A stretch of 64,000 nucleotides of DNA from Forficula auricularia (lineage: Eukaryota; Arthropoda; Insecta; Dermaptera; Forficulidae): NCBI GenBank assembly GCA_024734495.1, contig JALMQS010000085.1, positions 25,064,920 to 25,128,919 on the forward strand. The letters run 5' to 3'. This document shows, in pieces, positions 5,261 to 63,756 of the stretch. Every line of letters begins with the position of its first letter. Within the stretch, counting starts at the first letter, position 1. The translations under genes and the position numbers were made by a program. The notes under the pieces are model-generated. The model saw only the letters and a list, made by a program, of their open reading frames with translations. It was not told the DNA's origin and searched no databases.

Positions 5261-5555
5261 AAAGAGAAAGAAAAAACTTCTTAATTTTTGAAAGATGTAT
5301 TATTGTTAAAACATGTTTCGGGCCTAGTCGAACCCAACTTCAGTTAACACAAAACACTTTTTTCTTTTATATATTACAACTTATATTACTTGGTTTTATT
5401 CAGATATGTTTGTGAAAGTTGTAATATGTATATAAAATAATTATGTAAAAGAAAAAAGTGTTTTGTGTTAAGTCAAGATGGGCTCGACTAAGCCCGAAAC
5501 ATGTCTTAACAAAAATAAATTTTTCAAAAATTAAGAAGATTTTTCTTTCTCTTTT
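5261..5555. mobile_element. Foldback element with hammerhead-like cores in both arms
   Basis: Arms at about 5261-5370 and 5430-5555 are reverse complements. Each carries a degenerate hammerhead-like core. On the minus strand at 5309-5346 it reads CTGAAGT, T, stem II GGGTT/GGCCC, GAAA, CATGT. On the plus strand at 5470-5510 it reads TCAAGA, T, stem II GGGCT/AGCCC, GAAACATGTC. Stem III would be the palindrome ACATGT, followed by C at the cleavage position. I infer a Penelope-like origin by analogy with 28218-29512. Confidence 0.65.
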
Positions 5556-5790
5556 GAGGTAGCTCTTTCACAAATCCAAAAATTCAAGAATACTTCTTGG
5601 AATATAAGTCATTAAACGCATAATAAAGACACTGTTAAAATTTGAAGACGATTTACGATTAATATCAATGGCTTGGAAACGATCCATTCATTAAGAGAAA
5701 TTAGTAGTGTAAAAAGTACAGTCACGTTAAAAAAGATAACATAAAATGTTAACACCGTTCATATTTATAGAGTGCTAAAACTTTTTATGT
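5556..5790 (+). repeat. Inverted duplicate of the 12125-12890 region
   Basis: The block from AGCTCTTTCACAAATCC to the end of the GTTCATATTTATAGAGTG segment matches, in reverse complement, two separated pieces at 12780-12890 and 12125-12235. The distant copy therefore carries about 550 bp that this copy lacks. It is non-coding. Confidence 0.55.
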
Positions 5791-5865
5791 AGATTGTCGC
5801 GAAAAAACCTCCTTAATAATACCGAGATTGATAAAATGAATATGGAAATTGTATTATTTAATATA

Positions 5866-5995
5866 TCATCATCATCATCACCATCATTGAGTATACAGTC
5901 CTAAGACTGGTTTGATCCAACAATCCGTCTCCACTCGACTCTGTCCCCCGCCAGCTGTTTGACCTCTCTAAATGTCTGGCATCCCATATCCCCAT
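5866..5995 (-). pseudogene. LINE 3' end: last residues of a reverse transcriptase ORF plus ATG-rich tail
   Basis: The minus strand reads about 25 residues ending GDRVEWRRIVGSNQS and a stop. This is a C-terminus style typical of arthropod non-LTR reverse transcriptases. After the stop comes a short UTR and a (GAT)n-like tail at 5867-5885. The UTR string GGTTTGATCCAACAATCCGT recurs, diverged, on the other strand at 22099-22135. It is a strongly 5'-truncated insertion. Confidence 0.6.
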
Positions 5996-6136
5996 ATAAC
6001 AATATAAAATTTAGATTATCAACTTCAAATTAGGAATAGTCATTATTGATAATTATTCAGATTATTCCAACTTGAAATTAATTAATCTCAAAGAAAACAC
6101 AAAAAATAATGTTTTTAAAGGTTTATACTTAACTTA

Positions 6137-6243
6137 ACAAATTCACGAAAAAAAGCCCATTGTGAATAAATTTTCGCAAATTCACAAAAAAGCTCATTGT
6201 GATAAAATGTTTACAAATTCACGAAAAAAACCTATTGTGAAGC
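6137..6243 (+). repeat. Short tandem repeat, about 40-48 bp unit, three copies
   Basis: Three diverged copies of a unit containing AAATTCACGAAAAAA followed by CCATTGTGAA. There is no coding potential. Confidence 0.6.
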
Positions 6244-7245
6244 TTAAAACGGGTCACATAATCCTTCATTTTGGAACCTAATTTAATTTGAAGAAAATAA
6301 TAATATACGATCTCTATTAGAATTATATTAATCTATCTAATTACACAGGTCTAAGATGAAAAAGTTGTTTGAATAATTTTGTGATTCTTGTGTTTCTGAC
6401 TACTGAATCCCGAAAAATATTTATTTTTTGCGTAACACATCATATTTTTTCACAAAGTAAGAGTTAATGACACCAAACGTGTATAAGTGAACTCACCCTG
6501 TTTTGGCCTGTAAAACACTTCTATGTGGTTTTATTTAGAATTAAAAAAAACTTTTTAAATAAGTTATGGGGGTTTGAAAAGTGAAAATCGCGTAGAAATA
6601 GAGCTTTCTCTATTATGGTCTATAAAAATCTTGGCAATATGAACACCCCAGTGAATTTTTTTTTTAGAAATCTTAATTTTTGAGTAAGTTCTTAATGGAG
6701 ATTTGCAAAGTTAAATTTTTTTTAATTTACCCAAAAATTGTAATATTATACATTTTTTATATCCAATTTCTACTGTATTTGGGTGTAGAAATTGGAATAT
6801 ATTAGAAACAACATTTTAAAAGTTAAGTTTCGCAAAACTGTTTTATTAATCAAATTTAAATATAATTTATTAATGCCAAGCAATGTGTTTGGAGAATCGT
6901 ATTTGACTTTTAAATTGGATATATCTTAGGATAATTTTGCAATTTTTATTGAATGAAAGAACATAAATTGTTCGGTCTCCCTGCAATTTCCGCATTCACC
7001 AAGATGAACAGGCGAGAAAAGAAATAGACCAGAGAGTGCCTAGGGGCCTACCGAGCTTTCATACCCTTTCCTTCGCCATCAAGTTCAAGTTTAAAGTTTT
7101 TTAACTTTTTGTAATCCAAAGGGAAAGAAAATAAATATTTACAAGAAATTTATTTGATATGAAAATGAAGACGGTTAAATTTTTCTATACTTTAAGTAAG
7201 ATGGAAATAACAAAATTCTGGCCAAAATCTCGATGTAATATATTT
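6244..7245. other. Non-coding stretch
   Basis: I see no gene or defined element. It is AT-rich with a few short GC-richer islands (6965-7080). Confidence 0.5.
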
Positions 7246-7300
7246 ATTCAGCCTTCTGTAGACGTTTCGAACCCTCAATGAAATCCTTTTTCATGCCAAG
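7246..7300 (-). ncRNA. Degenerate hammerhead-like motif
   Basis: On the minus strand it reads ATGAAAA, A, a GGATT/GGTTC stem with wobble pairs, GAAACGTC. The GAAA-ACGT-C end matches the other copies, but the first core block has two mismatches to CTGANGA. It is probably a decayed copy and is unlikely to be active. Confidence 0.3.
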
Positions 7301-7332
7301 AGCTAGTAAATAATGATCAAACTCTTTTAAAT

Positions 7333-7434
7333 TTCGTCATTCAACTCGAACTCACATACAATCCTCGAAAGCATCTCGTGTGTGGGAATGAATATCTTGG
7401 GGGATTGTATGAGTATTCGAGTTGAATGACGAAA
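7333..7434. repeat. Short inverted repeat
   Basis: Arms of about 33 bp (7335-7367 and 7401-7433), built on TTTCGTCATTCAACTCGA, are reverse complements around a 33 bp loop. It lies next to the degenerate hammerhead-like motif and may be part of the same foldback unit. Confidence 0.6.
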
Positions 7435-7445
7435 GTTGATAATCA

Positions 7446-7699
7446 GTGGTTTTCAAAGGGTGTGCGCAGGCGCCCGGTGACGTTCTTAGGTACGGCCTAG
7501 GAAATAAATACCAGATATGTATGGGGCTATTATTAAAATTATTTTTTAGTTATATATTTATTAGTATTTTGTGTATGGTGCGCTTTTTTTCACTTTATGT
7601 GTTCCACAAATTCAAACAGTTTGAGAACCACTAGACTAACCTCTGTCCTGAAAAAGGATACTTGAGAAATCAAAAGGTCGGCGGAAAACTAAATAAATA
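7446..7699. other. Non-coding spacer
   Basis: I see no gene here. The 62-residue frame at 7446-7634 has no domain. Confidence 0.5.
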
Positions 7700-7926: not shown

Positions 7927-7928
7927 TA

Positions 7929-8975: not shown

Positions 8976-9202
8976 AAATTTAACAAAAATAAAAGACAAG
9001 ATGCTTTTTAGCATGACTATATTTATTTCGGGTTACGAACCCATCTTCTGCGGTTCACAGAGAAAACTGAGTATAAAAATATAAAATATATCGAATATAA
9101 CAAGAAGTAAAATTTTTTAACATTATTAATAAGAGAGGGGGGGTGAAGGGTTAAAGTATAAAGAAGAATTTGTATTTTTGAAAATTAAGATTAATAGCCA
9201 CA

Positions 9203-17120: not shown

Positions 17121-17381
17121 TTACCAAGGGTGTAGGATATCAGAGGGGAAAAAATGGTGCAAGAAAATAACAAATTTTATATTTTTAGACAATTTTTGTA
17201 CTTGTTATATAAATAACATAAAACTAGAGCTAATATTTAATTTCGATTGCTACGAATATCTGAACCTCAAAATTAAATAGACTTGATAATAATAAAGAAT
17301 AAAGAATATTGTTTATCAGTAATTAATTATTATATAACTTTTAGAGGATACATTTTCAAAAAATGGCTTAAATTTTTTAGG

Positions 17382-17430
17382 CTGATGATGACACTGATAT
17401 AAATAAAGTGGTCGAAACGGACATATTGAC
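17382..17430 (+). ncRNA. Hammerhead-like motif, stem III degenerate
   Basis: GG-CTGATGA (17384-17390), an extra T, then a bulged stem II GACAC/GTGGTC around an AT-rich loop, then GAAA (17416-17419) and CGGAC. The core is intact, but the ACGT-type stem III is not present. No inverted partner arm was seen here. Possibly a decayed Penelope-like remnant. Confidence 0.4.
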
Positions 17431-18011: not shown

Positions 18012-21000
18012 GTATATTCAATTTTTCCTTTATATAATTTCTTTGACTATTATGACATTCACTAATAATTAATTATGATCTGAAAGAATCTTTTGGATTG
18101 GAGGAAATTAATTAAAATTTTATTGTGTTTTCTAATACATAATTAAGTGTCGAAACATTGTCTATTATTACATTAAAAATATCCAAACTAGGAGTGGTTT
18201 TAGTCATATTTATTAGTAATAGATTCTTTTGTGTTTTAATAAAATATGTATATACTGTTCAAAATAAATATGCTTCCATTTTATAGTTTCATGTATTCGA
18301 ATATAGGCTATCTATGATATATCTGTCTGTAAGTCCGTTTTCGTTTTGATTTCAAAATGAGAAAGATGTGATTTTTAAACGAAATATGTTTTGATCTTAC
18401 ACACAATCAAAAATCGTATTAAAACTTTATATGTTATTTTGGATAAGATAGATTTTTTGTGGTGGGAAAATGAAAAATTATTTGTAATTAGAGCATAAGG
18501 CCACATTTACAGGAATAAATATTTTTATAGTTGGATAGTAAGATATGTACAGTGCCTTAACTAATCTTTGAAGGCAAAGAGAAACAAAGAGGTTAGTCCT
18601 CTGCTTGATGCAAATAAACATACACACATATATCATCACGATATATATGTGTGTATGTTTATTTGCATCAAGCAGAGGACAACCTCTTTGTTTCTCTTTG
18701 TGAATCAACAACTCTGCTACTCTCGGCAAAACAAAAACTTTTCAATTAAATCTTTGAAGGGCCATGTGCTAGGTTTTAATTTCGAGCCGCCTATTTTTAG
18801 TAAATATTAATCAAACGAGTGAAATAACGAATTTTTTTAAGAGCTTAATTATATTATAAGAGTCGTCAGTAATCAGCAATTTAATTATCAGTTTCAATAT
18901 TTTCATTTCGTGGGCTTTTTCAGGGCCCCTGCATGCTGTGCCTTGTGTGGGTGCACATGTTCTACTTGCCTAGTTAAGGCAATAGATATATATTTAATGT
19001 TTTTTGTTTCTTAGGATCAATATATGCCGTGTCAGGATCGAATGGTTGCTATCGTTCCTCTGGCTCGCTTTGTGACCACAAGTGCACTCGCGAGAGAGAC
19101 CCTGTTTGTGGAACTGATGGGCGCACATACCTCAACAAGTGTCTAGCCAGAGTTGAAGTTTGCAGGTAATTTCGGAAGAATAACTTTTTAAAAATATTTC
19201 TAGTGAATGTTGTCTTTTTTAGAGGATACTTTAATACTTTAGATATTTATATACAAGTTATTAGATAAAAAAAGTCATAAGAAAGATGCAATAAATATAT
19301 GAGAAGTGATGGAAGGCAGCCCAAGGATAATGAAAAAACATCGAATAAAATAGATTTATTGGATAGTCATTTTTCCCCCACTCAAAAACCGAAGTTTCGG
19401 AGGATTCTCCCCCTTCTTCAGGGTTTAAAAGGGATCAATGAGAAAAACATACAAGATATTTCGTTCCTTCAGCAGGGCTCGAAATTTGTTTTAAGGTAAA
19501 AAATTATATTGATGCCTTTGTTAAGAGGGGTGAATTTCGAGCACTGTTGAAGGAGAGAAGAGAGAAGTATCTTGTATGCTTCCCTCATTGACCCCTTTTA
19601 AACCCTGAAGAAGGATGGAAGATTATCCGAAACATCTGGTTTTTGAATGGGGAAAAATTAATAACTGTCCAATAAATCTATATTATTCGAGAGAATTTTT
19701 TTAATTATCCTTGGGCTGATCACTTGTCAATTAAAATTTCTACCAGTCCGTCTCTACAAAGAGAAAAAAATTTCTAATATGTATTTCTTTTTTTGATTTA
19801 TTTATTATAAATTTTCCGCAGTCTCTTCAGCTCCTTCAGATCTTGATATCTAGATATAACATAATATCCCTAAAGTGGCCTGCATATATTATCTATAGAT
19901 ATGAGTAATGATCCGTAGCGTAACATTTTGTTCTACTGCCCATATTACGGTTATCGAGACACTAAAATGTCCCATATTTACGCAAGATTTGAAAAAGCAA
20001 AATGTATATTAATAAAATATTTGAAAATGTTTCTTTTGAACAAATAAAAATTGGCCAAGTGAAAAAGAAAAACTGTATGTAAGTTATAGTGTAAAAGGAG
20101 AAATATGAATTATACAATTTAGTGTAAAATTATACAATTTAGTGTAAAAGGAGAAATATGAATTATACAATTTATGTTGAAGCATGGGCAACAATACAAA
20201 AAGAAATTCTTCTATGATCAACAGATCCACAGATGAGGGCTGATATTATCAAAGTAAAAAATTAAATAAATACATATATATGCGATATATATATTTTTAT
20301 AATTCAATTAAAGAAAGAAAAAAGAGATAATAAAACAAAGAAAAAAGAAAAACATATGATGTGATTCCCAATATGTTTATTTAAAAAATATTAAATTATT
20401 GGCACATCTTAAAAAAAACATGTTTTCATTTCCTAAATATGTCTACTGTATGTGTCCTTGATATTTGATTGATTAACTTACTCAAAATTAATCCAAATTC
20501 AGGCCCTTTGTGCGCCTTCAATGTAGGCAACCAGATAAACTAATTTGAATCCTTCATTATAAAATCTAAAAATTAATTATAATTTTTTACAATATAGGTG
20601 TTCCTATTTCAAGAATTGTTCTCTAGTATTAAAAGATAAAATGCCAAATAAAAAATCAGTGGAATTTTGCTTAAAAATGCATGGGAAGATAGATATCGGG
20701 CAACTGGATCGTGAATTATACAGACACGACGGCGGTCTGACTGAGAAAAGAGTATTTGATTCAAAATATAAATTAGTATCAGAAGTTTTAAAATAATTTT
20801 TTTAGTCCCACTACATCGTAATAAAAAATGCACAACATCTCTATCCCACAATGCAAGATACGTAATATCTTGGAAATTATGGAAAAATTAGTCATCATCA
20901 ATTTAAAATTGAATAAAATTTATAATTCTGAGTTTATCATGAAAAAAGCGACACATCGTGTGTTTTGTTAGTGTTTTTTTTAATGAATATATCAAACATA

Positions 21001-25800: not shown

Positions 25801-28800
25801 TAGGTCGCGAACTAATCAATCAAAAGAAATTTTCAATTATTTTCTTTCCAAAAAATTTAACAAAACTAAAGAGATTTATTTATTTTTTAAGATTTCAATA
25901 TTTTCTTATTTTACTGATCACGATTCAAGATGTGTTTTTTTTTCAAAATTTTTCCTCAAGTAAATTTTTTTTTGGCTTTTCGGCCTTTCTAGACATAAGC
26001 CAATTTACGATACTTATTATTTAAATTTGTCTCACCCAAGGATCAGATTTTAGCCAGATGCCTCGAGTCGGATTCGAACCCGGGTCCACTTAGTTAGCAA
26101 GCTGGTACGCTAACCCCTAGCTTAACCCATCTATAAAAATGATTGAAATAATTAAAAAATACATTGTTGTAAATATGGACATGAGTAACATTAATAAATG
26201 TTTACTCAATGCACAAATTATAGTAAAAATAATAAACATGTAAATTTTTTAAATTTGGGAAATAAAGACATTTTGTTCAGAAAAAAAAACTGATCACGAT
26301 AAAACATATTTTGAATCAAACTTTAATTTTATGAATATGTCATGTTTACAACTGATGTATAAAGTATCTTAATGTAAAGACCCAAATCTCCTAACTTCCA
26401 TATCAATATCAATTAAAATTTTTATTATAAAACTGAGGATTAAATGGAAGGTAGTCCAAGGATAAATCCAAAGAAAATTTATTGGAAATCTTTTTTTCAC
26501 TTCAGAAATCAAAGTGTCAAGAAGGAAGCATCTAACAATTTTCCTTCTTGTCTCCTTTATCCATTTTCCTTGGTGTTGTAGAGATATTTTTTGTATTCCC
26601 ATCATCAATAGAATTTATATTTTTATCTCGAAAAAAATGACCAGAATAGCGATTTTCCGTAAAAACTGAAGTTTTTTCAATGTTCTATATAGCAACCCTT
26701 ATCTTGATAGAACTCAATTTCATTATATATGTATAATTAAATATATATGTATACCATATAATATATATATTATATTACCTAAATTCCTATAAAAAATTAC
26801 AAATTTTTTGTCGCAACTATATTTATAAGAACCGTAAAAGCCATGATTTATCTTGTTCATCAGTGTACTACAAATCTAAATCTCCTTAACAAATCAATAA
26901 TATATTATAAAAAAAAAATTAAAAAAAAAAACTGTCATTTCTAAATGAATCATTTTAATGAGAAGAGAAATCGGTTGACGTTTTTTTTTTCAGGAAGCAT
27001 GTCTTCGAGGTGCCAATGGCTTACTGCCTGGGGCAGGAGCGCACTGCAGGAGGCCAGCCTCCTTGTCCAACCACCTGTGTTGGTGAGCCCGATCAGCCCA
27101 CTTGTGGATCCGATGGATATGTCTATACCAACGGCTGCGAGCTCAAGATGCTCAATTGCGGGTACAAATAACAATCTGCATAATTAATGCGTATATTATT
27201 TTATTTAAGAACGAGCTGAATGAACTGACGCTTCTCCCGAGATGTTTATATACCTTAAGGGGGTTCGTGACTGTTTATCATTTTTATGAGAAAATTCTCA
27301 AATTTTTACGATCGAATGCATTAAATATTTATTCCCGAAATTAGAAGTTGATCGTCTGTCCCATTAACGAGAAATAAATTGTTGAAAATTGCCCTTTTAA
27401 CATGAAAGTAAATGGACCGAGCTTTTAAAAGGACTATAACTTCTATGCAAATTATACCATTTTCAACAAATTTATACAAATCAATAATTCAACTTTTATG
27501 AATCGAATGATAAATTTTTTAAAAGATCTGACAGTCTAGTTAATTAGTTATTCATAAATGTAAAAAGTTATTTGCAGCCAACAGAATAAAACAAAAGTAG
27601 TATAGAATTCCAACTCTATTTCTTGAAATCGTTTTTGTGTTAAATAAATGTTTTTATAATGAGAAAAAATGTATCTCAATACTCTATTTATTAATATTAT
27701 CAAAACAAAGATTTGTATTCGAAATTAACCAAATTATTAACAATTTTTTATTAAAAAATTTAGTAGGCAGAAGTTGTTACTTTGCATAAATACAAAAGAT
27801 TTTTTCGAAGATCAACCAGATAGATAAAGCTGTCCCGAACCTCCTTAATTAAAGATAACAATAATACATCCACTGCAGTAGAGATATCAGTCAAAGTGGG
27901 ATGCATTGTGTTCAATAAAACCCCCAGAATAAGACATTTCGGCTCTAAATTTTATTGGGCCATTCTCATTTATTGAGAATTATATTCATATTACTATAAG
28001 TACATGTGATCGAAATTTTGGTGGGAGACCTAAGATTTGGATTCATCAGCGCCCCAAAAAACATATATATGAAAAAAATCAGAACTACTCCAAAACTTTC
28101 CCCATAGGGGCCCATTTGAGCACAATTTGACTGGACTACAGCTTTATAGAAAAAAGAGCAATAATTTGTATACCTTTAAGCAGGTCGAGTAATAGAGATT
28201 TATTTATTTAATTAAGTAATGGAGAGGGATTCAGCCAATGGGTAGCCTCTGCTGAATAAAAACTCCCAATTATAGAAAACGTTTCGGCTTTAATTAAATA
28301 ATGCCATCATCAGTTCCTAAGAGCTGAAAAAAGCGATAGAGCACACATGTAAAATTACAATAAAAATTTTTTACAAAAAAATCCAAACTTGTTAATAACA
28401 AAATTATATCTTACAGTATTAGCGACACAATTAATTTTATAAATAAATTGTCCGCAGGCAGAGTTGTTGTGGATTTTATCATAATATATACAAAATTATA
28501 TGAATTACAAAATGGTACATAAATCTTGGTGTGCTCTCACTTGATATGGGCAACGTCTCAAGTACAAATATAGCAAATTTCAATTTCATTCAATTAATAA
28601 TAATAATAATCATGAGGACATTGATCTATCATTGGATCACTGACCCCTCACAAACATCTCTTAATTAAAAGATTTCTCAAAATAATTAACAAACATTAAG
28701 AATAACAAAAATTCGAATTCAAAATGACAATATATAAAAATAAAAATAAAAAATAAATTTTTTCCTTCTCTACCTTTTTTACAATTCTTTCGCCCCTTTC

Positions 28801-31800
28801 CCAATGTTTATTATACCTGGGCATCAGTATTTGTCAATATTGACAAGTAAGCATTGCTAAGCCCAATGCAATCAGTTTGAAAATTAAGAGCCCTTTGCCC
28901 ATATGTCTTAATAAAGCATTTTTCGGCCAGCATACGCTTATAATTGTTCCCCAATCTCATCAAGATGACAGCATCATCAAACTCAAATCCATGGGAGGTG
29001 TCGATATGGTGTGTGCTCAGGGCTGTCGAAGATTTTTTTATTTATTACACTTAATTCATGCTCTCTTTTCCGCAAAGAAAAATGCGAGATGTTTGACCCA
29101 CATAAACACTTGTAGGTTTCGGGCAATCGCGGCACTTAATTAAGTATATCACATTATGTTGTTCGTGGGGTGGAACTACATCAAGTGAGAGCACACCAAG
29201 ATTTATGTACCATTTTGTAATTCATATAATTTTGTATATATTATGATAAAATCCACAACAACTCTGCCTGCGGACAATTTATTTATAAAATTAATTGTGT
29301 CGCTAATACTGTAAGATATAATTTTGTTATTAACAAGTTTGGATTTTTTGTAAAAAATTTTATTGTAATTTTACATGTGTGCTCTATCGCTTTTTTCAGC
29401 TCTTAGGAACTGATGATGGCATTATTTAATTAAAGCCGAAACGTTTTCTATAATTGGGAGTTTTTTATTCAGCAGAGGCTACCCATTGGCTGAATCCCTC
29501 TCCATTACTTAATTATATACATATACAGCCATCAAATTGTATCAAATTTATTTATTTATACGATTAATATATTTAAACTAAGTTTGATGAAGTAATGAAA
29601 TGTGATTTTTGGAGATTTTAGCACCTCCATTTTTAAATCATTACTTTCAATTTATTTATATAAAGTTTTATTTTTTTATTTTTTTCAAATTGAAACGATA
29701 GAGAATAAAGTGAATTTTTAATCGAAATTATTACGGCATTTATTATAAAAAAAAGTTTAACTGAATAGCTTTGAATTGATATGCATTAGAATCCTGTTAA
29801 TTGTTTGCTTATACTTGGGATTCGTTTGCAGACCCACCAAACGAAAGGTGACGGAGCAAGAATTCAGCAAATGCAAAGCCAGGTACACCAAGTGCTTAAA
29901 AGTGGATTGCCCTGCAGGAGAGAAACAAGATCCCGTTTGCGGCACCGACGGGGTCACCTATCCGAGCAACTGCCGTCTACAACAGGCCAACTGTCTGTAA
30001 GTTTATAAGGCAATTTTGCCAAAAAAATCACTTTAGCTAAAAATAAAAATAATTAATTCAAAATTAAATATTTCTTATATCAAGTGGATCTAATGAACAA
30101 GAATTAGCTAAAATACAGTCTTACAACATAAAAGGGGGTGTCATCCAAAATCCTGATAAGTCAAAATCCCGAAAGACCAAAATCCTGACAGTCAAAATCC
30201 CGACAGTCAAAATCCCGACAGCCAAAATCCCGACAACCCAAAATCCTGACAAGCCAAAATCCCGACAACCCAAAATCCCGACAACCCAAAATCCCGACAA
30301 CCCAAAATCCCGACAACCCAAAATCCCGACAACCCAAAATCCCGACAACCCAAAATCCCGACAAGCCAAAATCCCGACAGCCAAAATCCCGACAACCCAA
30401 AATCCCGACAACCCAAAATCCCGACAAGCCAAAATCGCGACAACCCAAAATCCCGACAACTCAAAATCCCGACAACCCAAAATCCCGACAGCCAAAATCC
30501 CGACAAGCCAAAATCCCGACAGACCAAAATCCCGACAGCCAAAATCCCGACAAGCCAAAATCCCGACAAGTCAAAATTCCGACAAGCCAAAATCCCGACA
30601 AGCCAAAATCCTGACAAAGCCAAAATCCTGACAAGCCAAAACCCCGACATTTGAAAATTCAGAGGTATTTTAATATTTTATTAACTTTTTTAATATTTAC
30701 AAAGATATATAGTATCTAAATATATATTTGACAAGATTAAGCTAATTAGCACAAAAAGTATAGTGAACCCCATAAAAGTACCATTCAAGTATTACGTAAC
30801 CAAAGTTTTATTGATTTTAGACCCCTCCCCCATGTAAGAAAGAAATAAGAAAATTGGAGAGTCCCTTCCCCTAAGAAATTTCTTCATGTGTTTATTCCAA
30901 GATTAAGCCATATCATTATAATTTTCGAAAACCGTACCAGGGTTATTTTATTTTATTTTCTCTCTATTTTAATGATCAAAATGCAAAAATAATGCAAGAA
31001 GTTGTATATGGAGTACTAGAGGTGGATTCAACATTAGGCGCCCATTACAATTACTATTGTTTTTCATTAAATGCCTTGTTTAATTATAAAATTAAAACTT
31101 TAAATGTAGTCATTATGTATTGTGGTAAAAAAAAGTGCACTCTTGAACTTGCTCCCCTATATTTTTAAAAAATTTTCACTCTCATATACTTCTTCAAAAT
31201 TTTCCAAAGATCTAGAAAATCGCCACTACCTATTTCTTCTTCTTTCTTTTTCTTTTATTGTATTTTTCTTTTATTTATTTTTTTACTACCTATTTAACCA
31301 ATTAAATTAAGCCAGCCACGTGCGAGTTGGATCACATACCAATTGTTCGGTAATTTATAACTTTGAAAAGAAAAGATATCAAATTCTTTTTTTATTTATC
31401 GTTAATAAGAAGAGATTGAGTGCATTTGTAGAGTTTTTCATGATTTACATTAAACCGTTTCTAAACACCGACAGGTACAAAAATCACATAAAAACGGCCA
31501 TTTAGAGCTCACTCAAACCGTCGTCATTTTAAATCGATGTAAACGTAAAAAAAATTAAATCTAATTCTATCATACTTAATCATACTTAAAAGAAAAGATC
31601 TTTCCTAGCATTCTATGATAAAAAATATTTTTTATTTTTTATTCTTCATAAAATTCGATCTTACACAAAGTAGTCATTTGTTCAAAACTTCAATACGATT
31701 TTTGAATAGCGGGAAAATAAATACATATTCATATAACTTCTATATTTCAAGTTGTCATCTTATTTATTATATTATTTTTAAATTCTAAAGTTTTTTAGTC

Positions 31801-34800: not shown

Positions 34801-35455
34801 GAGATGGTCCAGCTCCGTCCGATAAAGCCTTTAACGAATCCGCGGCCGAGCCCCCAAATTTATAGGGAATAACCCTGATGATGGATGAAGATGAGTTTTT
34901 GACTCGAAAGGCTTGATGGAAAGATATCGGTGGAGCTCCGGTGTCGTCGATTTTCTTCAGAGGTGAAAACCTCTCTTGGTGGCGTAAAGCCGTGAAATTT
35001 GCTTTCCCAAAATAAGAATTTGCCCGGAGGCTTGTGAAAAATGCTTTTTAAAAATAAGAAGTTGCCCGGGGGGCAGTGAAATATGCTTTCAACAAAATAA
35101 ATGGCACAAGGCCCGAAATTTATTACTTCTTCGTGGTTACAAGATTTCGTACAGCTTTGTTCTTCAATCGTTCCAAAGTCGTCAGGCGAACCCTTGGAGA
35201 GCGTAAAACAGCTCTTCACACAGTGAGGGCTGAATTGCAACTGACTCGCTAATTACGGCTTTGTCTCTTTTATAGCCGTCGATTTTAATTGGTAATTAAG
35301 GTGATTGGTTAATAATTTTTCCTAGATCGCGCTCGATTAATTATAAAAAGGCGTGGTCTCCTTCTTCGCTAATTAGTCTTTCATAAGCCACGAACCGATT
35401 AACATTGAAAATTAAATTACATTTCTAATTGAAAAAAAAGCAGAAAATCGATTCC

Positions 35456-35510
<55 letters not shown>

Positions 35511-38500
35511 TATAGTTTACGAGCTACAAGCTCTGATAGACGCTAACAAGGTCTAGTTTTACTTTTTAAACGGAACCCTATTCAAATGTCACCAATTAGC
35601 TTTCAATCTATTTCACTTTGATTCTTTTTAAATTTACGCGAAAGGTTTATAATGAGCAAGTTCTTCAACACATAAATAAATTAATCCACCACAGACACAA
35701 TACGGCCTTAAGCTTCAAAAGAGTAATTGTGGCGAAGGAGATTGTATAGGCACCGAAAATTTGAAGAATTGAAGATTCTAGGATTCGTGAAAGATGATCA
35801 GGAAAAAAAATTAAGTATTTTTCTTGTTTTAATTTGACTTGACAGCCAAATATAAATAAATATTTTACTTATTTTTTTGATTAGTTTTTGAGAATTTTTT
35901 TTATATAATTATATATAACCAAACTTCTTGAGGAAACAAATTCTCATTTAAATAGGTGTTGGTTTGGAACCTTGAAAGTTTATACACAAATAATTGTTAA
36001 ACAAAAGAATAATATTACATACTCTAATAATTTCGATGTGAGGGAATTTTTCCCATCTTTAGATTGTTCCAAGGCTGATGATGACATATTTGAAAATATC
36101 GAAACGTTCCTGGTAACAATAAAATAAAATTAAGAAAAATAAATGATAAAAAATGTGTTTTTTTGTCAAAAAAGAATAAAACCAACACCTATTTAAATGA
36201 GAATTTGTTTCCTCAAGAAGTTTGGTTATATATAAATATTTTACTATTAACCACAAATAACATTTTATTTTCCGAAATTAGTTATGTTCCTATATAAAAA
36301 TAAATAATAAAAATAATATGCAATAAATATCGTTTGCGGTTTAAAACAAAGATGATTTTTATTAACCAACACCACACAATCTAATTTAATTTTTAATTAA
36401 TAAAATGTTGATTATAGTTCAGAAATAATCGAATCCACTTTATTTTATTACTAATTTAATTAAATTAAATTATTGAATTTTTCTCCAATTAATCTACGTA
36501 CACTTACTTGGTTAAACAGGCTAGTAAATATTTTATTTTATTTTTCATCTAATTGAAAACCAATCCGAGTCCCTCTAATTTTCAAATTCATATTAAATTT
36601 TTTTTTTTTTTAATGATAATGATGAGAGAAGGAGTTACACCAAAAAGGTGCAACCCCTAAAGGCCTCGGTTGGCCCCTCCATCGTGAAAAAGAAGAAGAA
36701 AGAATTTTATGGGTTGGGCGGAGGTCGAAGGTATCTGTGGATACGGGTCTTAAATAGCTTAAGGTTATAAGTCGCGGGAAAGATGGTGGCAGGGAGCGAG
36801 TTCCAGTCTCTGGAGGTCATAGGAATAAAAGAGTTGGCGAAAGCGCTTGTTCGACTTTTATCCAATTTGACAGCGAAGGGGTGCTGAGCGTTAGAAAACC
36901 GCGTGTTTCTCGTAAAGAGGGCATTAGGGGGGATAAGAGATTTCAGCTCGACTGAACAGACACCGACTCATTACATTAATTTGCCCAACTCTGGTCCAAA
37001 TTAGTAATGGGGGGTATAATAAATCCCTTAAACTAACGTATAAACTAACTTTATTTCTATAATTGAAGTAAAAAATTATTTTATGGTGAACTGATTTAAA
37101 TATTTCACTTCTAAATTACTCGGTACGCTCGGCGGTCGAAGCTTGTTGTGCAAACCTGAGTTTTGAATTTCATTGAAAATTTTCAATTTTTCTCTATTCA
37201 TGTTTATAAATATTTGCAAGGTGGAGAAAATACTGTCTGGGTTTGACGATATCCACGATAAGTAAGGAATTAGAAAGTACGTTCTGATACCAAATTTTCG
37301 CATTTTCAGTAGAAATAAATTATTAGATGTTGAAATGTTTAGCTTCCGAACGTACGTACTTAATGAACAGAAATTTGGCACAGACATTTATTTGTAATAA
37401 TAACGAGTGATTGTACAGACTGAGTTTTGGAAAAGTTTTTTTCTCCAGTTTTTAAGTTTATTTTTGCAATATCTTGAAAATTAAAGATTTGAAGATTATA
37501 TAGAATGTATCATATTATACTCGTAATTTCAGAAGAGGTTTTTAATTTTGAGAGAATATCAATCACAAAATTGAAATGTGCGATTTTTGTCGAGTAGTAA
37601 AATACTTAGGGCCACTTTCAGTGCCTGTCATCTGATTGGCCATCCCAGTCCTTCCATTTACCATCTACCCTTTGTCACTTGTAAAAAGCATTTAGTTTGC
37701 GACATACAACCGGCCCTTAGTCATGTTTGAGTTTTTGCGTTTCAATAACTTTAAGCTATACTTTGGTTCCCTACTTACTCTCCTATCATTCTGAAACTGA
37801 TAACAAATATTCGTTCGTTTTATATAGAATGAATTAATTTTTGCTTGTTTAGTACATTTTTCAAGGCCCATCTTCAAAACTGTTTTGGTCCCCCATTTTG
37901 ATTTTGATTTCCTATGTGCCCCTCTAAAAAATCATAACTTTAAGCTATAGTTTAGTTCCAACTTACACTCCTATCATTCTGGAACTGATCGGAAATAGTC
38001 GTTCGTTTTATATAGAATGCATGAATAATGACTTGTTTAATAGCTTTTTCATGGACCCCTGAAAACTGTATGGCCTCCCATTTTTATTCTAATTTCTTGT
38101 GGCCCCTTTATAAAAAGGCTCTGGCCACTGTTGAGAAACACTGAACTATACGTACTCGAGGTTTTAACCCTTATTATTTATGAAAGTATTACCAAAGGAG
38201 ATTTAATCACTTGGAAGACTGAAAAATAAAGCCCGAAACCTCGTGAACTTTTTTTTATAAAAGTTTAATTATATGTTTTTTATTTATTGAACAAATATTT
38301 AATAATTAAATAGTATAAGGAGAAAGTTTTAAGAAAAAAATCTTAATAAATAATTCGATTTTCAACAGGAAAGGAATTCAATTAGCGCATGTCGGCAACT
38401 GTACTCTTTTAACTCAGCGTGAAGAACCTTGTCCGCAAAATTGTCCTGTTCTTAACAATGATCGACCTGTTTGTGGATCCGATGGAAATGCCTACCGGTA

Positions 38501-52005: not shown

Positions 52006-53313
52006 GCGCCGACTGCCCCACTACAAGTATAGACAAATACAAAACTGTGGAGGATTATTACTTCGAAGAGTGCGTTTGTGCTTTTGTCGAAATATCTTAA
52101 TACGAGAGTCATATACGTGACCAGCATGCAGCCGATCTACCCTTAAATAGTAATAGGCAATTTCAACGTCCTATAATCATGACTCATCAAAACGAAATTA
52201 ATTGTAATTTAACTGAAGTATCATTTAAGAAAAAAACAGAAAGTACGATAGATATTCAGAGCTCTTCAAAGATAGGACCTTTCACATATAGCAAATGTGC
52301 AAACAAATATACTACCAAAAGTTCCTTGAATAAACATTTTGTGACTCATTCTAGTAGAGAGAAGATATACAGCTGTCACCACTGCGATAAGAAATTCCCA
52401 CATAAGTCCACGCTTAAAACACATATGCTGATTCACACTGGTGAAAAATTATTTGGCTGTGATCACTGCGATAAGAAATTCTTACTAAAGGGAAATCTCA
52501 AAACACATTTATTGTCCCACACTGGGGAGAAGTTATTCGGCTGTGATCACTGCGATAAGAAATTCTACTAAAGTCCAGCTTAAAAGTCCAACCTCAAAGT
52601 ACATTTATTGTCCCACACTGGGGAGAAGTTATTCGGCTGTCATCACTGCGATAAGAAATTCTCACATAAAGTCCACGCTTAAAACACATATGCTGATTCA
52701 CACTGGGGAGAAGTTATTCGGCTGTGATCACTGCGAGAAGAAATTCTCACGAAAGGGCAACCTCAAAACACATTTATTGACCCACACTGGGGAGAAGTTA
52801 TTCGGCTGTGATCACTGTGAGAAGAAATTCTCACAAAAGTCCACGCTTAAAACACATATGCTGATTCACACTGGGGAGAAGTTATTCGGCTGTGATCATT
52901 GCGAGAAGAAATTCTCACTAAAGTCCAACCTCAAAGCACATTTATTGTCCCACACTGGGGAGAAGTTATTCGGCTGTCATCACTGCGATAAGAGATTCTC
53001 ACATAAGTCCACGCTTAAAACACATATGCTGATTCACACTGGGGAGAAGTTATTCGGCTGTGATCACTGCGAGAAGAAATTCTCACTAAAGTCCAACCTC
53101 AAAACACATATGCTGATTCACACTGGGGAGAGGTTATTCGGCTGTGATCTTTGCGAGAAAAAATTCTCACAAAAGTCCACGCTTAAAAGACATATGCTGA
53201 TTCACACTGGTGAGAACTTATTCGGCTGTGATCATTGCGAGAAGAAATTCTCACGAAAATCCAACCTCAAAACCCATTTATTGTCTCACACTGGATACGT
53301 CTCACGAGGATAA
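52006..53313 (+). pseudogene. C2H2 zinc-finger array, broken gene copy 1
   Basis: An acceptor-like TTTTTTTAG precedes 52006. In one frame (from 52008) the sequence runs through an atypical finger, FEECVCAFVEIS, an in-frame TAA at 52098-52100, then YESHIRDQHAAD and a Met at 52179. Then come two clean fingers, a broken stretch (52560-52680: one base lost near 52565, one gained near 52672) and seven fingers in another frame to TAA at 53313. Fingers follow C-x2-C-x12-H-x3-H on a strict 84 bp period with linker HTGEKLFG. Such arrays bind DNA in the nucleus. Helix positions vary among a few types (SQKSTLK, SRKGNLK, SHKSTLK). Confidence 0.85.
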
Positions 53314-53319
53314 GATATT

Positions 53320-53835
53320 CATAATTAAGTCCAGATTCTCGGACAGAATTGCACCCATAAAAGTCGCAAAGAAGAAAGAATACGGGATCTTGTTATAAGT
53401 TTATAGTTTATGCACCGACAAGAAAACATTTGGGATAGGCCTGTGCGATATCAGGGGTCAGGTTCAGCTACAGATTGATTAATCATATCAAATATATCTA
53501 TGTAAATTGTTGCTCACGTTTCACGTAAAAACGGCTGAAGGGATTATTATGAAATTTCTTATTTGGATCCAATGTCTTCTAATTTAAATACATTGTTATA
53601 ATGTTTTGATATTTTGACCGTAAAAAGGGGGTTGGGGGTCACTGATGGGAATTATCAAATAACTCTTAAACTATTAAGTCTATGACAAATTTTGTTATGA
53701 GCTAAGTTTTAGGGGATATGATTTCTGACAACTTTTGTTTAAAGAAATTCCCCAAAAATACCCAAAGAGTGTGTGGGGGGGGGGTCAAAAAATCAAAATT
53801 AATGCCCTTGGTGCGGGAGTCCAGGGGGTGTAGCA
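53320..53835 (+). repeat. 3' flank of zinc-finger copy 1 (family B repeat)
   Basis: AAGAAGAAAGAATACGGGATC, ACCGACAAGAAAACATTTGG, TTTCACGTAAAAACGGCTGA and a G tract near 53777 recur in the same order at 55065-56000. This places the flank inside the duplicated unit. Confidence 0.8.
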
Positions 53836-53861
53836 CACTGCTTAGCAAGAGGACTGCCAGA

Positions 53862-55027
53862 GAGTATCATTTAAGGAAAAAACAGAAGTTACGATAGATG
53901 TTCAGAGCATCTTCAAAGATGGGACCGTTCACACGTAGCAAATGTCCAAACAGATATACTACCAAAAATCGTCTTGAGATAGACATTTTGTGACTCATTC
54001 TAGTACAGAGAAGATATTCAGCTGTGATCACTGTGAGAAAAAATTCTCACAAAAGTCCACGCATAAAAGACATATGCTGATTCACACCGCGGGGAAGTTA
54101 TTCGGCTGTCACAGAGCACTGCGATAAGAAATTCTCACGAAAGGGTCCACGTCTCAAAACACATATGCTGATCCCACACTGGGGAGAAGTTATTCGGCTG
54201 TGATCACTGTGAGAAGAAATTCTCGCAAAAGGCTCACCTCAAAACACATATGCTGATTCACACTGGGGAGAAGTTATTCGGCTGTCAGCACTGCGATAAG
54301 AAATTCTCACAAAAAGGACATCTCACAACACATTTGCTGATTCACACTGGGGAGAAGTTATTCGGCTGTCATCACTGCGATAAGAAATTCTCACAAAAGT
54401 CCACGCTTAAAACACATATGCTGATTCACACTGGGGAGAAGTTATTCGGCTGTGATCACTGCGATAAGAAATTCTCCCAAAAGTCCAACCTCAAAACACA
54501 TTTATTGTCCCACACTGGGGAGAAGTTATTCGGCTGTCATCACTGCGATAAGAAATTCTCACATAAGTCCACGCTTAAAACACATATGCTGATTCACACT
54601 GGGGAGAAGTTATTCGGCTGTGATCACTGCGATAAGAAATTCTTACTAAAGGAACATCTCAAAACACATTTATTATCCCACACTGGGGAGAAGTTATTCG
54701 GCTGTGATCACTGCGAGAAGAAATTCTCGCAAAAGGCTCACCTCAAAAGACATATGCTGATTCACACTGGGGAGAAGTTATTCTGCTGTGATCACTGCGA
54801 TAAGAAATTCTCACATAAGGTACATCCTCAAAACACATATGCTGATTCACACTGGGGAGAAGTTATTCGGCTGTGATCACTGCGGTAAGAAATTCTCGCA
54901 AAAGCATCACCTCAAAACACATATGCTGATTCACACTGGGGAGAAGTTATTCGGCTGTGATCACTGCGGTAAGAAATTCTCTCAAAAGTCCACGCTTAAA
55001 ACACATATGCTGATTCACACTAGATAG
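53862..55027 (+). pseudogene. C2H2 zinc-finger array, duplicate copy 2
   Basis: It starts at a block matching 52208 onward (AGTATCATTTAAGGAAAAAA) and continues through about twelve fingers. The first three or so (to 54240) carry several small indels. 54250-54830 holds six intact fingers, and a further frameshift near 54816 (CATAAGGTACATCC) shifts the last ones into another frame, ending at a TAG at 55024. Same 84 bp period. No intact start, so I call it a pseudogene or a mis-assembled array. Confidence 0.85.
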
Positions 55028-56005
55028 AAGTTATTTAGCTGTGATCACTAGTATAAGAAATTCATAATAAAGTCCAGACTCTCGGACAGAATGCAGAAGT
55101 CGCCTGGAAAGAAGAAAGAATACGGGATCTTGTTATAAGTTTATAGTTTATGCACCGACAAGAAAACATTTGGGATAGGCCTGTGCGATATCAAGGGGTC
55201 AGGTTCAAGCTATAGATTGATTAATCATATTAAATATATATATGTAAATTGTTCATTGTTACTATTAATGATTGTATATCCTATATTTTATCTATGTATA
55301 AATGGAGCCAATTTAGACAATAAATAACAATAGAAAGAAATATAAACCAAATTCGTATTTACTTACATTTTTATTTAACGATTCAACCATATACTTAATC
55401 TAATAATAAAATGTTTCCCCTAGAATCAACACCGAACTCCTTAAAAGTTATATACTTAATCAGATTTTGATTTTCCCTTTTAATAAATATAGGAATTTAT
55501 ATCAGCGTATAAACGAAATGTTAATCAATTTAAGTATATAAAATTAATGTTTTTTCCGTACATTCTTCCAAATTACGCCAAATTTTGGTTGCTCATGTTT
55601 CATGCAATGCAAGCACGAAAACACCCTAAACAAAATTCCTGTCTGTCTGTATGTTTCCGTGGGTTCTGCGAAATAGTTGCTCATGATTCACGTAAAAACG
55701 GCTGAATGAGTGATTATTATGAAATTTCATATTGGATCAGATGTCTTCTAATTTAAATACATTGCTTTATAAGTTTTTGATATTTTGTCCCCAAAAGTTG
55801 GTTTGGCAGGAGGGGGGCGCACTAATGGAAATTATCAAATAACTCTAAACTATTAAGTCTATGACAAATTTTGTTATCGACAAAGTTGTAGGGGATGTGA
55901 TTTCTGACAAGTTTTGTTTAAAGAAATTCCGCCAAAAATACCCAAAAAGACCGAGAGAGGGGGGGGGGTCAAAAAATGAAAATTATTGCCCTTGGGGTGG
56001 GAGTC
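55028..56005 (+). repeat. 3' flank of zinc-finger copy 2 (family B repeat)
   Basis: Second copy of the flank at 53320-53835, with about 330 bp of additional sequence between its halves (55250-55575). Confidence 0.75.
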
Positions 56006-61016: not shown

Positions 61017-61036
61017 TGATTGCCCGTGCCTTTGTT

Positions 61037-61379: not shown

Positions 61380-61515
61380 AAATATTCACACAACTCAATT
61401 GGGTAACGAATAATCTTTATTCAATCAAATATAACATAAGAATTAGAAAACAAAACAAACAACAACAATCAACAGTAAACAATAACCAGCGTTGCCTAGC
61501 AACGCCTATCCAACA
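61358..61515 (-). repeat. 5' LTR of the gypsy-type element
   Basis: 158 bp, identical to the other LTR except one base missing in the ACA(A)CAACT segment. Confidence 0.93.
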
Positions 61516-61520
61516 AATAC

Positions 61521-62070
61521 ATACACATAAAACATATTATAAAAAGCAAGCATCTTCATTTTCATATTTATTACATACCAAGCACACCATTTCAGGGTTT
61601 ATCCTGTGCCCAGATCCATTCAGCCAAAAATACAGTGTTTTGTATTACCCATTTTATCCTGATGAAAAATTCTCATCATCCGAATGAGGACCTTCATTTC
61701 TAGGATTCCCCCCTGATCGAAATCGATTAATTTATTAAGAGAGGAAAAGAAAAAATTTACCATTCTCTTGTGATCCTCGCTAAAATAATAAACCTCCAGT
61801 TCCCCTATTAAGTTTTTATGCTATCCCGAATTTCTTCTGGGTCTAGTCTAAGCCAAATTTCTGTTTTATTCAAAATAGTGAAAAACTTTTTCATTTGAAA
61901 GGCCCAGTTTTAATCGAATGAATGATTCTTTCTGATCCTTACTAAGGGTAAATATTCTTTGGTAACCTATTTTGGACAATCTATATTCAGGCATTAAAAT
62001 AATTTTATATAGCCATTTTAGGACACTCTTAAAAACGTGATTACCCTTTTTTGTTAAAATCCTTTTTTTA
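61521..62070. other. Non-coding stretch
   Basis: No gene or named element. Confidence 0.45.
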
Positions 62071-62189
62071 TACACTCCTGAGCAAAGAAATGGAATCCCT
62101 CTTATTAATTTCTTTGTATATTTCTTTGTAATTTATTAGAAATTTAAATATTTTTTCTACAAGGTTCATTTTTCAGCATTTAATGGGTC

Positions 62190-62503
62190 CTCTACACTAT
62201 GGCCCAACGTGAGCCAAACATGTTGACCATGTTGGCCACCAGTAAAACGAGTTAATTTGACGGTGACTCCACACAGTGGTCCAAGAGTTGGGCCAATGTC
62301 TATGGCCTTGTGGAACGACACCTAGCCACTGGCCACTTTCGTTGCGTAACATTGGCCCTCTTTCATATATCGAAAAAACCGCTACGAAGACCAACCATCG
62401 CCAATCTCATCCACAGCGACAACCAATGACCAATACAAGCCAACCCCCCCTCTACACATTGGCGTTTGCTTGAATTGGCCCAAGTTGGCTCATAGTGTAG
62501 AGG
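62190..62503. mobile_element. GC-richer MITE with CTCTACACTATG ends
   Basis: Inverted ends CTCTACACTATGGCCCAACG and CTCTACACTATGAGCCAACT (right end complemented), about 29 bp. The interior is rich in TTGGCC repeats. It resembles PIF/Harbinger-type MITEs, but a clear 3 bp duplication is not visible. The opposing frames of 65 codons are shadows. Confidence 0.75.
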
Positions 62504-62555
62504 CGGCATAAATTAAATGTAGAATGAAAACCTAATGGAAATATATTATATAATT

Positions 62556-62966
62556 AAGTGGATATCGATGAGGCAGTCCAAAAAAGAAGAAGATAATTTA
62601 CACTATCTTTTTATTCATAAAACCGACGTTTCGGAGGCTATTCCCTCCTTCTTCAGGGTTTTGAAAAGTCAGTGAAGGAAATCCAATTCGACATTCCCCT
62701 CGTAAGTAATACTACATTATAATTCTGCTGAGAATGAAATACAATATATTGTATTGTTCCTGCCACTGAAAGAGGAGACAGAGGGGAATGTCGCATTGGA
62801 TTTCCTTCACTGACTTTTCAAATTCCTGAAGAAGGAGGGAATAGCCTCCGAAACGTCGATTTTATGTTTAAAAAGATAGTATAAATTATCTTCTTCTTTT
62901 TTTGGACTGCCTCATCGATATCCACTTAATACACTTATCAGTCCGTCTCCAAAAATTACTCCAATC
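62556..62966. mobile_element. Foldback with two complete hammerhead-like cores and a 15 bp target duplication
   Basis: ATATATTATATAATT occurs on both sides (62541-62555, 62967-62981). Arms run from GTGGATATCGATGAGGCAGT and AGTCCAAAAAAGAAGAAGAT inward. In the left arm (minus, 62616-62664), stem I AAAACC/GGTTTT, CTGAAGA, A, GGAGG/CCTCC, GAAA, ACGT, C. In the right arm (plus, 62819-62866), the same core with stem I slightly diverged. The right end ATCAGTCCGTCTCC matches 19290-19770 and 63323-63756. No ORF; I assign it to the Penelope-like group by motif. Confidence 0.85.
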
Positions 62967-63056
62967 ATATATTATATAATTGTTAATATATTTGGGAATG
63001 AAAATTACATTTAATAACTCGCAAGGCAGGTGATTCCATTTCTTTGCTCGTGACTG

Positions 63057-63322
63057 TATAATGAAGCTAGGGAGTAGACCCATACAAAAAATACAGAGAC
63101 TTTAAAAATTTTACATGGTCCAGTTCTATGTTGTCCTCTCTATTGAGACTCCCTGTTATTATTATTAAACCTTTTATTTTAGAGAAAGCGCCTGGCGGAA
63201 CGAGCGCTGCCAGGTAATTTTTTGTTTTAGTTAAGAGTTTCTTCTTTTGGTGCAGATAGCAGCAGCAATCAAAATATTCACAGGTACGTGTGGACAAGTA
63301 AATAAAAATAATGTTATTTTAT
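63057..63322. other. Non-coding spacer
   Basis: No gene or clear element. Confidence 0.45.
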
Positions 63323-63756
63323 GCAATTGGATGTTGATGAAAGCAGTCCACGGTGGTTGTAAAAAATAAGACTATAGAGGTTTTATTATTTTACATTTAT
63401 TTGTTAAACCGACGTTTTTTTTGGCATTGTCAAAGGAGACAGAAAGTAATTATGTTTTGAACTACTTTCATTGACTTTTTGTTGTAAGTAGATTTATGAT
63501 TATTATTTTTGTTTTGTGTATATTGTTTTTATATTATGAATGATTGTAAAAATCCCATACTAATTATTGTTCGTCTTCCCTCAATTATATAGACCCTGAA
63601 GAAGGAGAGAATAAATCTCCGAAACGTCGGTTTAACAAATAAATGTAAACTAATAAAACCTCTATAGTCTAATTTTTTTACAACCACCGTGGACTGCTTT
63701 CATCAACATCCAATTGCATATTTATACCAGTCCGTCTCCTAAAGAAAATCTCTATC
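63323..63756. mobile_element. Foldback with hammerhead-like core and a 12 bp target duplication
   Basis: ATGTTATTTTAT flanks the unit (63311-63322, 63757-63768). Arms share TGCAATTGGATGTTGATGAA and AGTCCACGGTGGTTGTAAAA. The right arm has a complete hammerhead-like motif (63590-63634); the left arm has a partly deleted copy (ACCGACGTTTTTTTTGGC, near 63407). Confidence 0.85.
63590..63634 (+). ncRNA. Hammerhead ribozyme-like motif, best-formed copy
   Basis: Stem I TAGACC (63590-63595) pairs with GGTTTA (63629-63634), one G-T wobble. The core CTGAAGA is at 63596-63602, one extra A at 63603, stem II GGAGA (63604-63608) with TCTCC (63616-63620), GAAA at 63621-63624. ACGT (63624-63627) is a self-complementary stem III, and C63628 is the predicted residue 5' of the cut. 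All three stems meet in the classic order. As stem III cannot close by itself, a dimer is implied. Activity is untested. Confidence 0.7.

Follow-up and report, generated by a model that had tools for sequence, protein, structure and literature searches.

Foldback elements and hammerhead-like cores in the window

We analysed a stretch of 64,000 nucleotides of the earwig Forficula auricularia (contig JALMQS010000085.1; the whole stretch is called the window below), from an assembly of 1.06 Gb in 845 contigs. The window contains compact elements with inverted arms, named A to F here, that carry cores resembling those of hammerhead ribozymes, and one ribozyme-free head-to-head copy of a Penelope-like element (PLE) (Table 1). 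A first-pass annotation of this DNA had reported one layout at nine loci: CTGANGA, one extra base, a hairpin stem II and GAAA. Six of the nine carry this layout, and with it the CUGANGA ... GAAA core of the hammerhead. One locus (5309/5470, element E) has mutated cores, and two (7246 and 25028/25095) lack CTGANGA and were rejected as hammerheads; the stem GATCG/CGATC, quoted as an example of preserved stem II pairing, belongs to the latter. Good cores were found at 28272/29405 (element A), 62616/62819 (B) and 63590 (D), and core and stems are retained at 19388/19600 (C). Locus 17382 has kept its core, with an ACGG linker, and stem I was not seen there. The locus of element E is a true foldback, whose left core changed the last A of the motif to T and whose right core reads GTCAAGA; the A-to-U change that corresponds to the left core, described as follows, has a precedent: the same change is described in a functional natural hammerhead (PMC10085705).

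Cores lie in both arms at four of the nine listed loci (those of A, B and C and, mutated, that of E), and both arms have an intact core with an ACGT linker at only two. The core of D is restricted to the right arm, the left arm ending at the hammerhead linker, and the single core of F (locus 36064) lies between the 61-bp arms rather than in both of them. We infer that F is a PLE copy whose inverted partner was truncated 3' of the ribozyme. Target-site duplications (TSDs) of variable length in AT-rich targets flank A, B, D and the ribozyme-free copy; the TSD search found none at C or E and no convincing one at F.

Table 1. Elements of the window, their predicted hammerheads and associated sequences
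Feature	Position	Strand	Remarks
Element A with 13-bp TSDs	28198..29558	- (that of the coding remnant)	TSDs 28198-28210 and 29546-29558; inverted arms 98.6% identical; tail 29516-29545
Hammerhead, A left arm	28270..28321	-	
Hammerhead, A right arm	29402..29453	+	
GIY-YIG-like endonuclease remnant in A	28835..29170	-	In-frame stops
Element B with TSDs	62541..62981	+	Self-BLAST, TSD search, 39 genomic copies fetched
TSDs of B, ATATATTATATAATT	62541-62555 and 62967-62981		15 bp
Head-to-head arms and loop of B	62556-62930		
Hammerhead, B left arm	62617..62664	-	Stems I and II complete; linker ACGT; predicted cleavage after C
Hammerhead, B right arm	62818..62865	+	Stem I weakened (62826(+)) and absent from minimum-energy fold
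Tail of B, right arm only	62931..62966	+	CAGTCCGTCTCC box
Element C, older foldback	19317..19757	+	Right-side tail box TACCAGTCCGTCTC
Hammerhead, C left arm	19383..19429	-	Linker ACTT; minimum-energy fold differs from hammerhead
Hammerhead, C right arm	19597..19645	+	Linker ACAT
Element D with 12-bp TSDs	63311..63768	+	TSDs ATGTTATTTTAT, 63311-63322 and 63757-63768
Hammerhead of D, right arm only	63588..63636	+	Recurs with surrounding 320 bp behind GIY-YIG-like frame at L171
Tail of D	63721-63756		
Element E, foldback	5260..5555	+	Both hammerhead-like cores mutated
Hammerhead-like core, E left arm	5302-5351	-	CTGAAGT; linker ACATGT
Hammerhead-like core, E right arm	about 5464-5514	+	GTCAAGA
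Element F, 61-bp inverted arms	35905..36239	+	Self-BLAST
Single hammerhead of F	36061..36122	+	Good core; 10 of 12 stem I pairs counted by eye; z -0.89
Ribozyme-free head-to-head PLE copy	18563..18760	+	Outside the loci first listed; 94.4% and 90.2% identical to L190
TSDs of ribozyme-free copy, AATCTTTGAAGG	18563-18574 and 18749-18760		12 bp
Decayed hammerhead-like core	17368..17430	+	No valid linker or stem I

Abundance and orientation of the cores

The loose motif CTGANGA-N{5,30}-GAAA matched the AT-rich window (27-38% GC per 4 kb) 16 times, against 4.49 expected and a maximum of 9 in 100 shuffles. A stricter filter, which asked for 3 bp or more in each of the two stems and for a palindromic linker from a list, left four sites (mean 0.02 and maximum 1 in 50 shuffles). 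Across the genome we found 23,226 exact matches to CTGANGAN{8,32}CCGAAACGTC and none to the reversed pattern. A looser descriptor gave 39 sites, against an average of 2.45 and a maximum of 6 in 20 shuffles, in 20 evenly spaced 10-kb stretches from three contigs (190.8 kb of letters, 9,202 of the 200,000 bases being N), which, extrapolated to the genome, gives a rough order of magnitude of 10^5 sites.

The cores tend to be near an inverted partner. An antisense match of at least 30 nt lies within 1.5 kb of 35 of the 44 cores from the sample and the window, a few of which may be due to chance. Among the first 100 genome places listed, there are 21 neighbours at less than 1 kb (about 2 by chance), of which 17 are head-to-head, three direct and one convergent. 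All three direct neighbours come from one array (C4:1022704-1023098 in G000), where four hammerhead cores in direct tandem at a spacing of about 120 bp resemble an array of retrozyme type.

Viral contigs were also scanned and set aside: at least 120 loci were listed, 58 matches share one 37-nt span, which is probably a conserved unrelated sequence, and of the six that passed the stem filter none was linked to this element. Four IMG/VR contigs (L005, L036, L097, L108) have CTGATGAGGC...GCCGAAACGTC sites that lack the extra base and resemble ordinary hammerheads.

Structure of the ribozyme

The suggestion that the extra base is a family trait was borne out. A single extra base precedes stem II in 73 of 75 copies, of which 42 come from the fetched copies of element B and 33 from the window and the evenly spaced sample (31 of these 33 have it). 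In 39 rows (32 distinct), picked by core, spacing and a linker list of mostly palindromes and without reference to stems I and II, the share of stem II cells that pair is 81.9% if one extra base is assumed, 48.1% if none is and 45.0% if two are. Stem I cells pair at 67.7% in the same rows, and none of 2000 re-dealings reached the value of either stem. A reading of the extra base as the U of an AUG start codon, prompted by the element PAc of Anolis, was rejected as a general rule, several families having an A there; at locus L190, described below, the ATG within the ribozyme meets, by eye, a stop codon in the linker.

Both stems show covariation when pairs are counted, a count used in place of R-scape; the first-pass annotation had proposed compensatory changes in both and had named a lack of covariation as what would refute them. 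Stem II is paired in 90.5% of the cells of 19 sequences (59.0% in shuffles). Its doubly changed cells number 30, against 9.1 in shuffles, and sliding the partner lowers the covariation score from 0.828 to 0.306 or less. In 11 sequences with four-letter linkers, stem I is paired in 78.8% of the cells (51.2% in shuffles), with 20 doubly changed cells against 7.8. None of 500 shuffles reached the paired fraction of either stem, in counts that ignore kinship and that use hand-picked alignments of one or a few sequences per family, assembled after a scan that itself used stem II pairing; the 39 rows picked without reference to the stems agree with them. For stem I, the outermost pair forms in only three of the 11 sequences, a slide by -1 still pairs 59.1%, and RNAalifold, unaided on an alignment of mixed linkers, recovered stem II and not stem I.

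Stem III would consist of only A15.1-U16.1 plus the linker, which reads, among others, ACGT, ACTATAGT, ATAT, ATATAT, ATATATAT or ATATATATAT, and ACATGT in element E. Counting G-U pairs, the linker is palindromic in 62 of the 75 copies (26 of 33 in the sample and window), exceptions including ACTT, ACAAAAGT and ACTAAAGT. The trend is suggestive only, the scoring having rewarded palindromes; it also barred G at the cleavage position, so that the non-G found there is uninformative.

Two kinds of result weigh against a ribozyme. The search of the window with the Rfam hammerhead models, which the first-pass annotation had proposed, gave no match at the gathering threshold, and none of the 31 hits obtained at E up to 10 is a hammerhead; we weigh this lightly because stem III is nearly absent. 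The folding results are modest. By single-sequence minimum energy, two of eight window copies fold exactly as stems I and II (62617-62664, at -14.4 kcal/mol, and 63588-63636) and two form both stems with additional pairs in the core (29402-29453 and 19597-19645). The remaining four fold otherwise, and z-scores of the eight range from -2.54 to -0.12. One could therefore regard the motif as a hairpin that binds DNA or a protein and merely resembles a hammerhead, all the more as function is read here from sequence and as the PLE ribozyme of PMC11167929 is described as cutting in vitro only with protein added. Against such a hairpin stand the recurrent CTGA.GA...GAAA core, the covariation of both stems and the mostly palindromic linkers, and we find it very improbable. 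The hammerhead-like cores are real, and probably self-cutting.

Arms, tails and target sites of element B

Element B was studied in 40 copies, 39 fetched from the genome plus that of the window, these being the best-scoring 40 of 156 candidates matching the ribozyme-containing arm. Head-to-head pairs account for 29 of them, and in all 29 the tail is on exactly one arm (an arm counts as tailed if it continues through 25 or more of the common tail's 39 nt), the other arm stopping near ...CCACTTAAT. The outer ends of the arms are fixed, and the inner ends and loops are variable. The TSD score is at least 7 in 18 of the 29 pairs, a value reached by 2.1% of 812 mismatched flank pairs. The two arms of an element have in common 24 non-majority bases, against a mean of 6.8 and a maximum of 16 in 2000 re-pairings of arms, which argues that both arms derive from one source type. 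The pairs are not all independent, because B and L141 have a common left flank and L136 shares its flanks with the single-arm copy L129. By eye, the same one-tail layout occurs in A, C and D, in the ribozyme-free copy of the window (18575-18748), and in L178, L186, L187 and L183. In L178 and L186 (family f2) the sequence of the tail is ATGGATACGAGTGATTTACCATTA, which may represent the opening codons of the frame of the element.

The first-pass annotation saw in the placement of cores in both arms an unusual design, by which the transcript of either strand would carry a ribozyme. The arrangement is in fact that of the head-to-head pseudo-long terminal repeats (pseudo-LTRs) described for endonuclease-containing PLEs (PMC3846280). 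Nor are two cores obligatory: the strict pattern finds them in both arms of 13 of the 29 pairs, in one arm of 11 and in neither arm of five. The RNA of the B foldback has a predicted fold of -255.1 kcal/mol in which both ribozymes are buried in the stem, to be compared with the value given above for the best ribozyme alone. Because this long predicted hairpin encloses both ribozymes and would be expected to hinder them, the foldback is, on this model, a poor place for ribozyme action. Independent foldback DNA elements, akin to miniature inverted-repeat transposable elements and self-cleaving from either strand, would account for the compact inverted repeats and for the loci and pairs with two cores. 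They would explain neither the one-sided tail, the variable inner ends and loops and the variable length of the TSDs, nor the many pairs with fewer than two cores, the energy of the hairpin and the tie to coding sequences presented next, and they are the least probable of the explanations that we weighed.

Penelope-like coding sequences

The short copies of the window have no intact frame for a reverse transcriptase (RT) or a GIY-YIG endonuclease. Coding sequence is found in relatives. At L171, a GIY-YIG-like frame of 131 amino acids with the motif LYIGQTKR ends about 330 bp before a D-type 3' sequence, 320 bp of which are 94.7% identical to element D, hammerhead included. The remnant within element A is 31.6% identical to this frame over 95 amino acids (E 4.7e-10), which in turn is 36% identical to the L190 endonuclease over 42 residues (E 5e-4 in a single comparison). 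L190 came from a search of the genome with PF01541, in which 150 of 3,423 candidates were scored and several frames of 841-864 amino acids were found. Its frame of 858 amino acids has both RVT_1 (E 1.6e-16) and GIY-YIG (26.5 bits, for a cut-off of 22.6), and lies in a tandem element with a period of 2,909 bp that has a hammerhead in direct orientation before and after the frame. Drt3a, retron and group II RTs head the phmmer hits of the frame in PDB; telomerase RT has an E of 0.15. By their sequence, loci related to the units encode RT and GIY-YIG in this genome, together with the same ribozyme layout in direct tandem. The hammerhead sits in the pseudo-LTR, with its cleavage site about 60-130 nt from the outer end of the arm. 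The proposed association of short, palindromic, dimer-type stem III hammerheads with PLEs is in keeping with this coding capacity of the relatives and with the linkers, which are often palindromic.

The ends of 36 alignments to the L190 pseudo-LTR, measured from the cleavage site, form two clusters, 12 at +97 to +111 and nine at +148 to +154. Another 13 fade between +16 and +54, for the most part in related families, and the last two stop at +89 and +165; BLAST ends are approximate, and some alignments end at the edge of the query or locus or fade in related families. The tail, as far as these alignments place it, is the sequence between the two end clusters, within the element's own 5' region and ahead of the likely start codon of L190 at about +197. 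The ribozyme-free copy of the window resembles L190, the similarity of both its arms beginning +11 from the cleavage site. Its hairpin is scored by several microRNA families, all below their thresholds.

Insertion ends and the cleavage site

If insertions were made from RNA cut by the ribozyme, their ends might mark the cleavage site. This was rejected, as no mapped end falls there: partner ends are informative in 15 cases, 14 from the element-B set (with L129 and L136 taken as one) and one from D, and not one is within 2 nt of +1. Ends at or past -59, where the reference has its edge, were left out of this count. Nor does any of the 36 L190-family alignments start within 10 nt of the site. 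The partner arms of L145, L152 and window element D begin 4-7 nt before it, in or beside the linker, and are too few to interpret. Since copies span the cleavage site, the template would have been uncut, or religated, at that position.

These ends bear on a retrozyme-like origin, in which small RNAs would be excised by the hammerhead, circularised and reinserted. The type I-like hammerheads, the short non-coding units and the one array of four cores all recall retrozymes. Retrozymes are, however, direct tandem repeats with the cleavage site at the ends of the unit, whereas near neighbours here are mostly head-to-head, units end elsewhere and copies run across the site; the four-core array is a possible exception to the first trait. 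A retrozyme origin of the units is accordingly hard to credit, if a shade less so than free-standing foldback DNA elements.

Other features of the window

The window also contains LTR elements, LINE-type RTs and zinc-finger repeats. At 31873-35459 an LTR-type element, apparently a recent insertion, has direct repeats that are 99-100% identical over their matched parts, with a gag/protease frame between them. Two arrays of an 84-bp repeat at 52245-55126 code for zinc fingers, of C2H2 type as named by eye. A 16-bp tandem repeat at 30160-30667 leaves several frames open on both strands, with repeated peptide units on the + strand.

Discussion

Our results suggest that several families of endonuclease-containing PLEs gave rise to the foldback units as short insertions truncated at the 5' end, and that the ribozyme within them is a passenger, a reading to which we give a probability of about 0.92. 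The foldbacks would then be truncated PLEs inserted head-to-head and no new type of element, and the presence of hammerheads in both arms looks like a by-product of insertion. Some observations count against this. The element-B set is a non-random one made of the best-scoring copies. Eleven of its 40 copies have one arm alone (of these L153-L155 are probably one insertion, because they share flanks, and L129 has a short partner in the comparison of partner ends), and 11 of the 29 pairs have a TSD score below 7. Pfam called neither the pieces of the remnant in A, at E up to 1, nor the frame of L171.

The mechanism that we propose starts from features visible in the copies themselves, i.e. fixed outer and variable inner ends, arms placed head-to-head, one tail, TSDs and a common source of the arms. 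The protein of the element would cut both strands of an AT-rich target, and each end of the break would prime reverse transcription, with RNA of one kind as template. The two start sites would lie downstream of the ribozyme, separated by about 38-50 nt, and the joining of two unfinished complementary DNAs would produce the foldback. The ribozyme may be kept for a role in the full-length tandem RNA, where two copies in direct repeat might associate by their palindromic stem III into a cleaving dimer, whereas in the foldbacks it would only be carried along. PMC11167929 describes the cutting and extension of both DNA strands, the tail being delimited by two neighbouring RT start sites, and reports that the start site did not differ between strands; for this reason, a strict one-tail rule would be an addition to the published model. 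In its most general form the proposal is that every head-to-head PLE insertion found here stems from two reverse transcriptions of one RNA at two sites, one per end of the broken target, that the one-tail rule would be a constant trait of PLE integration, and that the hammerhead, in which the additional nucleotide ahead of stem II would be obligatory and stem III palindromic, cuts only in tandem full-length RNA. For this whole set of statements we would put the chances slightly short of even.

The inverted arms might instead arise by self-priming on an antisense PLE transcript, as proposed for the PLEs of Adineta vaga (PMC3846280), and not by priming from both ends of the target. The head-to-head orientation and the rare bases common to both arms would follow from self-priming as well. 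Yet pairs with a truncated partner have unequal inner ends, so that their junction is no simple hairpin, and self-priming by itself leaves unexplained why the arms end at two different RT start sites. We regard it as unlikely, though as a more serious contender than the other alternatives.

The placement of many cores of this genome in PLE insertions that are head-to-head and lack an open reading frame (ORF) would explain the scatter: according to PMC7761336, most minimal hammerheads of animals are dispersed in non-coding DNA and the in vivo role of PLE hammerheads is a mystery. The uncut template implied by copies that span the cleavage site agrees with the in vitro result of PMC11167929, where insertion is described as independent of ribozyme activity. 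The one-tail rule, for its part, provides a simple genomic test of the mode of integration of PLEs.

The phenomenon is real but largely known. Published accounts (PMC7761336, PMC6155905, PMC10085705, PMC3846280, PMC11167929) already cover the hammerheads of PLEs, the reduction of stem III, the action as dimers, the inverted pseudo-LTRs and the tails. Our literature search found neither the extra base of PLE hammerheads nor a pair-by-pair count of tails; its coverage was partial, with key hammerhead papers outside it, and we do not claim that these are unpublished.

Among known systems, the closest for the ribozyme are the minimal type I PLE hammerheads (Cervera and De la Pena 2014; Lunse et al. 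2017; via PMC7761336, PMC6155905, PMC10085705), which similarly lack helix III, are proposed to act as dimers, lie in pseudo-LTRs and are dispersed in thousands of copies per genome. The earwig copies differ in that nearly all have one extra base between A9 and stem II, of which an earlier description is possible. A parallel to the extra base is offered by a viroid, reportedly CChMVd. A viroid hammerhead with one additional nucleotide in the region of the catalytic core is on record (De la Pena and Flores 2001; PMC11014351), in an unrelated element and at an exact position that may differ. Animal retrozymes also have short non-coding repeats with type I hammerheads, which in amphibians have a weak helix III, a palindromic tetraloop and dimer action, but these are direct tandem repeats with loop-loop contacts, in contrast to the inverted and tailed units of the earwig (PMC7229834).

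For the element as a whole, the endonuclease-containing Penelope of Adineta vaga is similar in its inverted pseudo-LTRs, with head-to-head as the commonest arrangement and a tail on one of them; the tail has 31 bp, the TSDs 8-10 bp in the cases seen and the ORF about 840 amino acids (PMC3846280, in whose main text the word hammerhead is absent). The earwig copies differ from it in being mostly short and ORF-less, and in their very high number. Like them, Poseidon PAc of Anolis (PMC11167929) carries its hammerhead close to the 5' end, is arranged in tandem units, inserts into AT-rich targets and owes its tail to a pair of RT start sites, whereas its ORF begins at stem II of the ribozyme and that of L190 probably starts about 197 nt past the cleavage site. 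Of the canonical traits of endonuclease-containing PLEs, RT followed by a C-terminal GIY-YIG in one frame is present in the relative L190, and pseudo-LTRs in tandem or inverted, 5' truncation, a tail at one end and variable TSDs in AT-rich targets are all found in the earwig.

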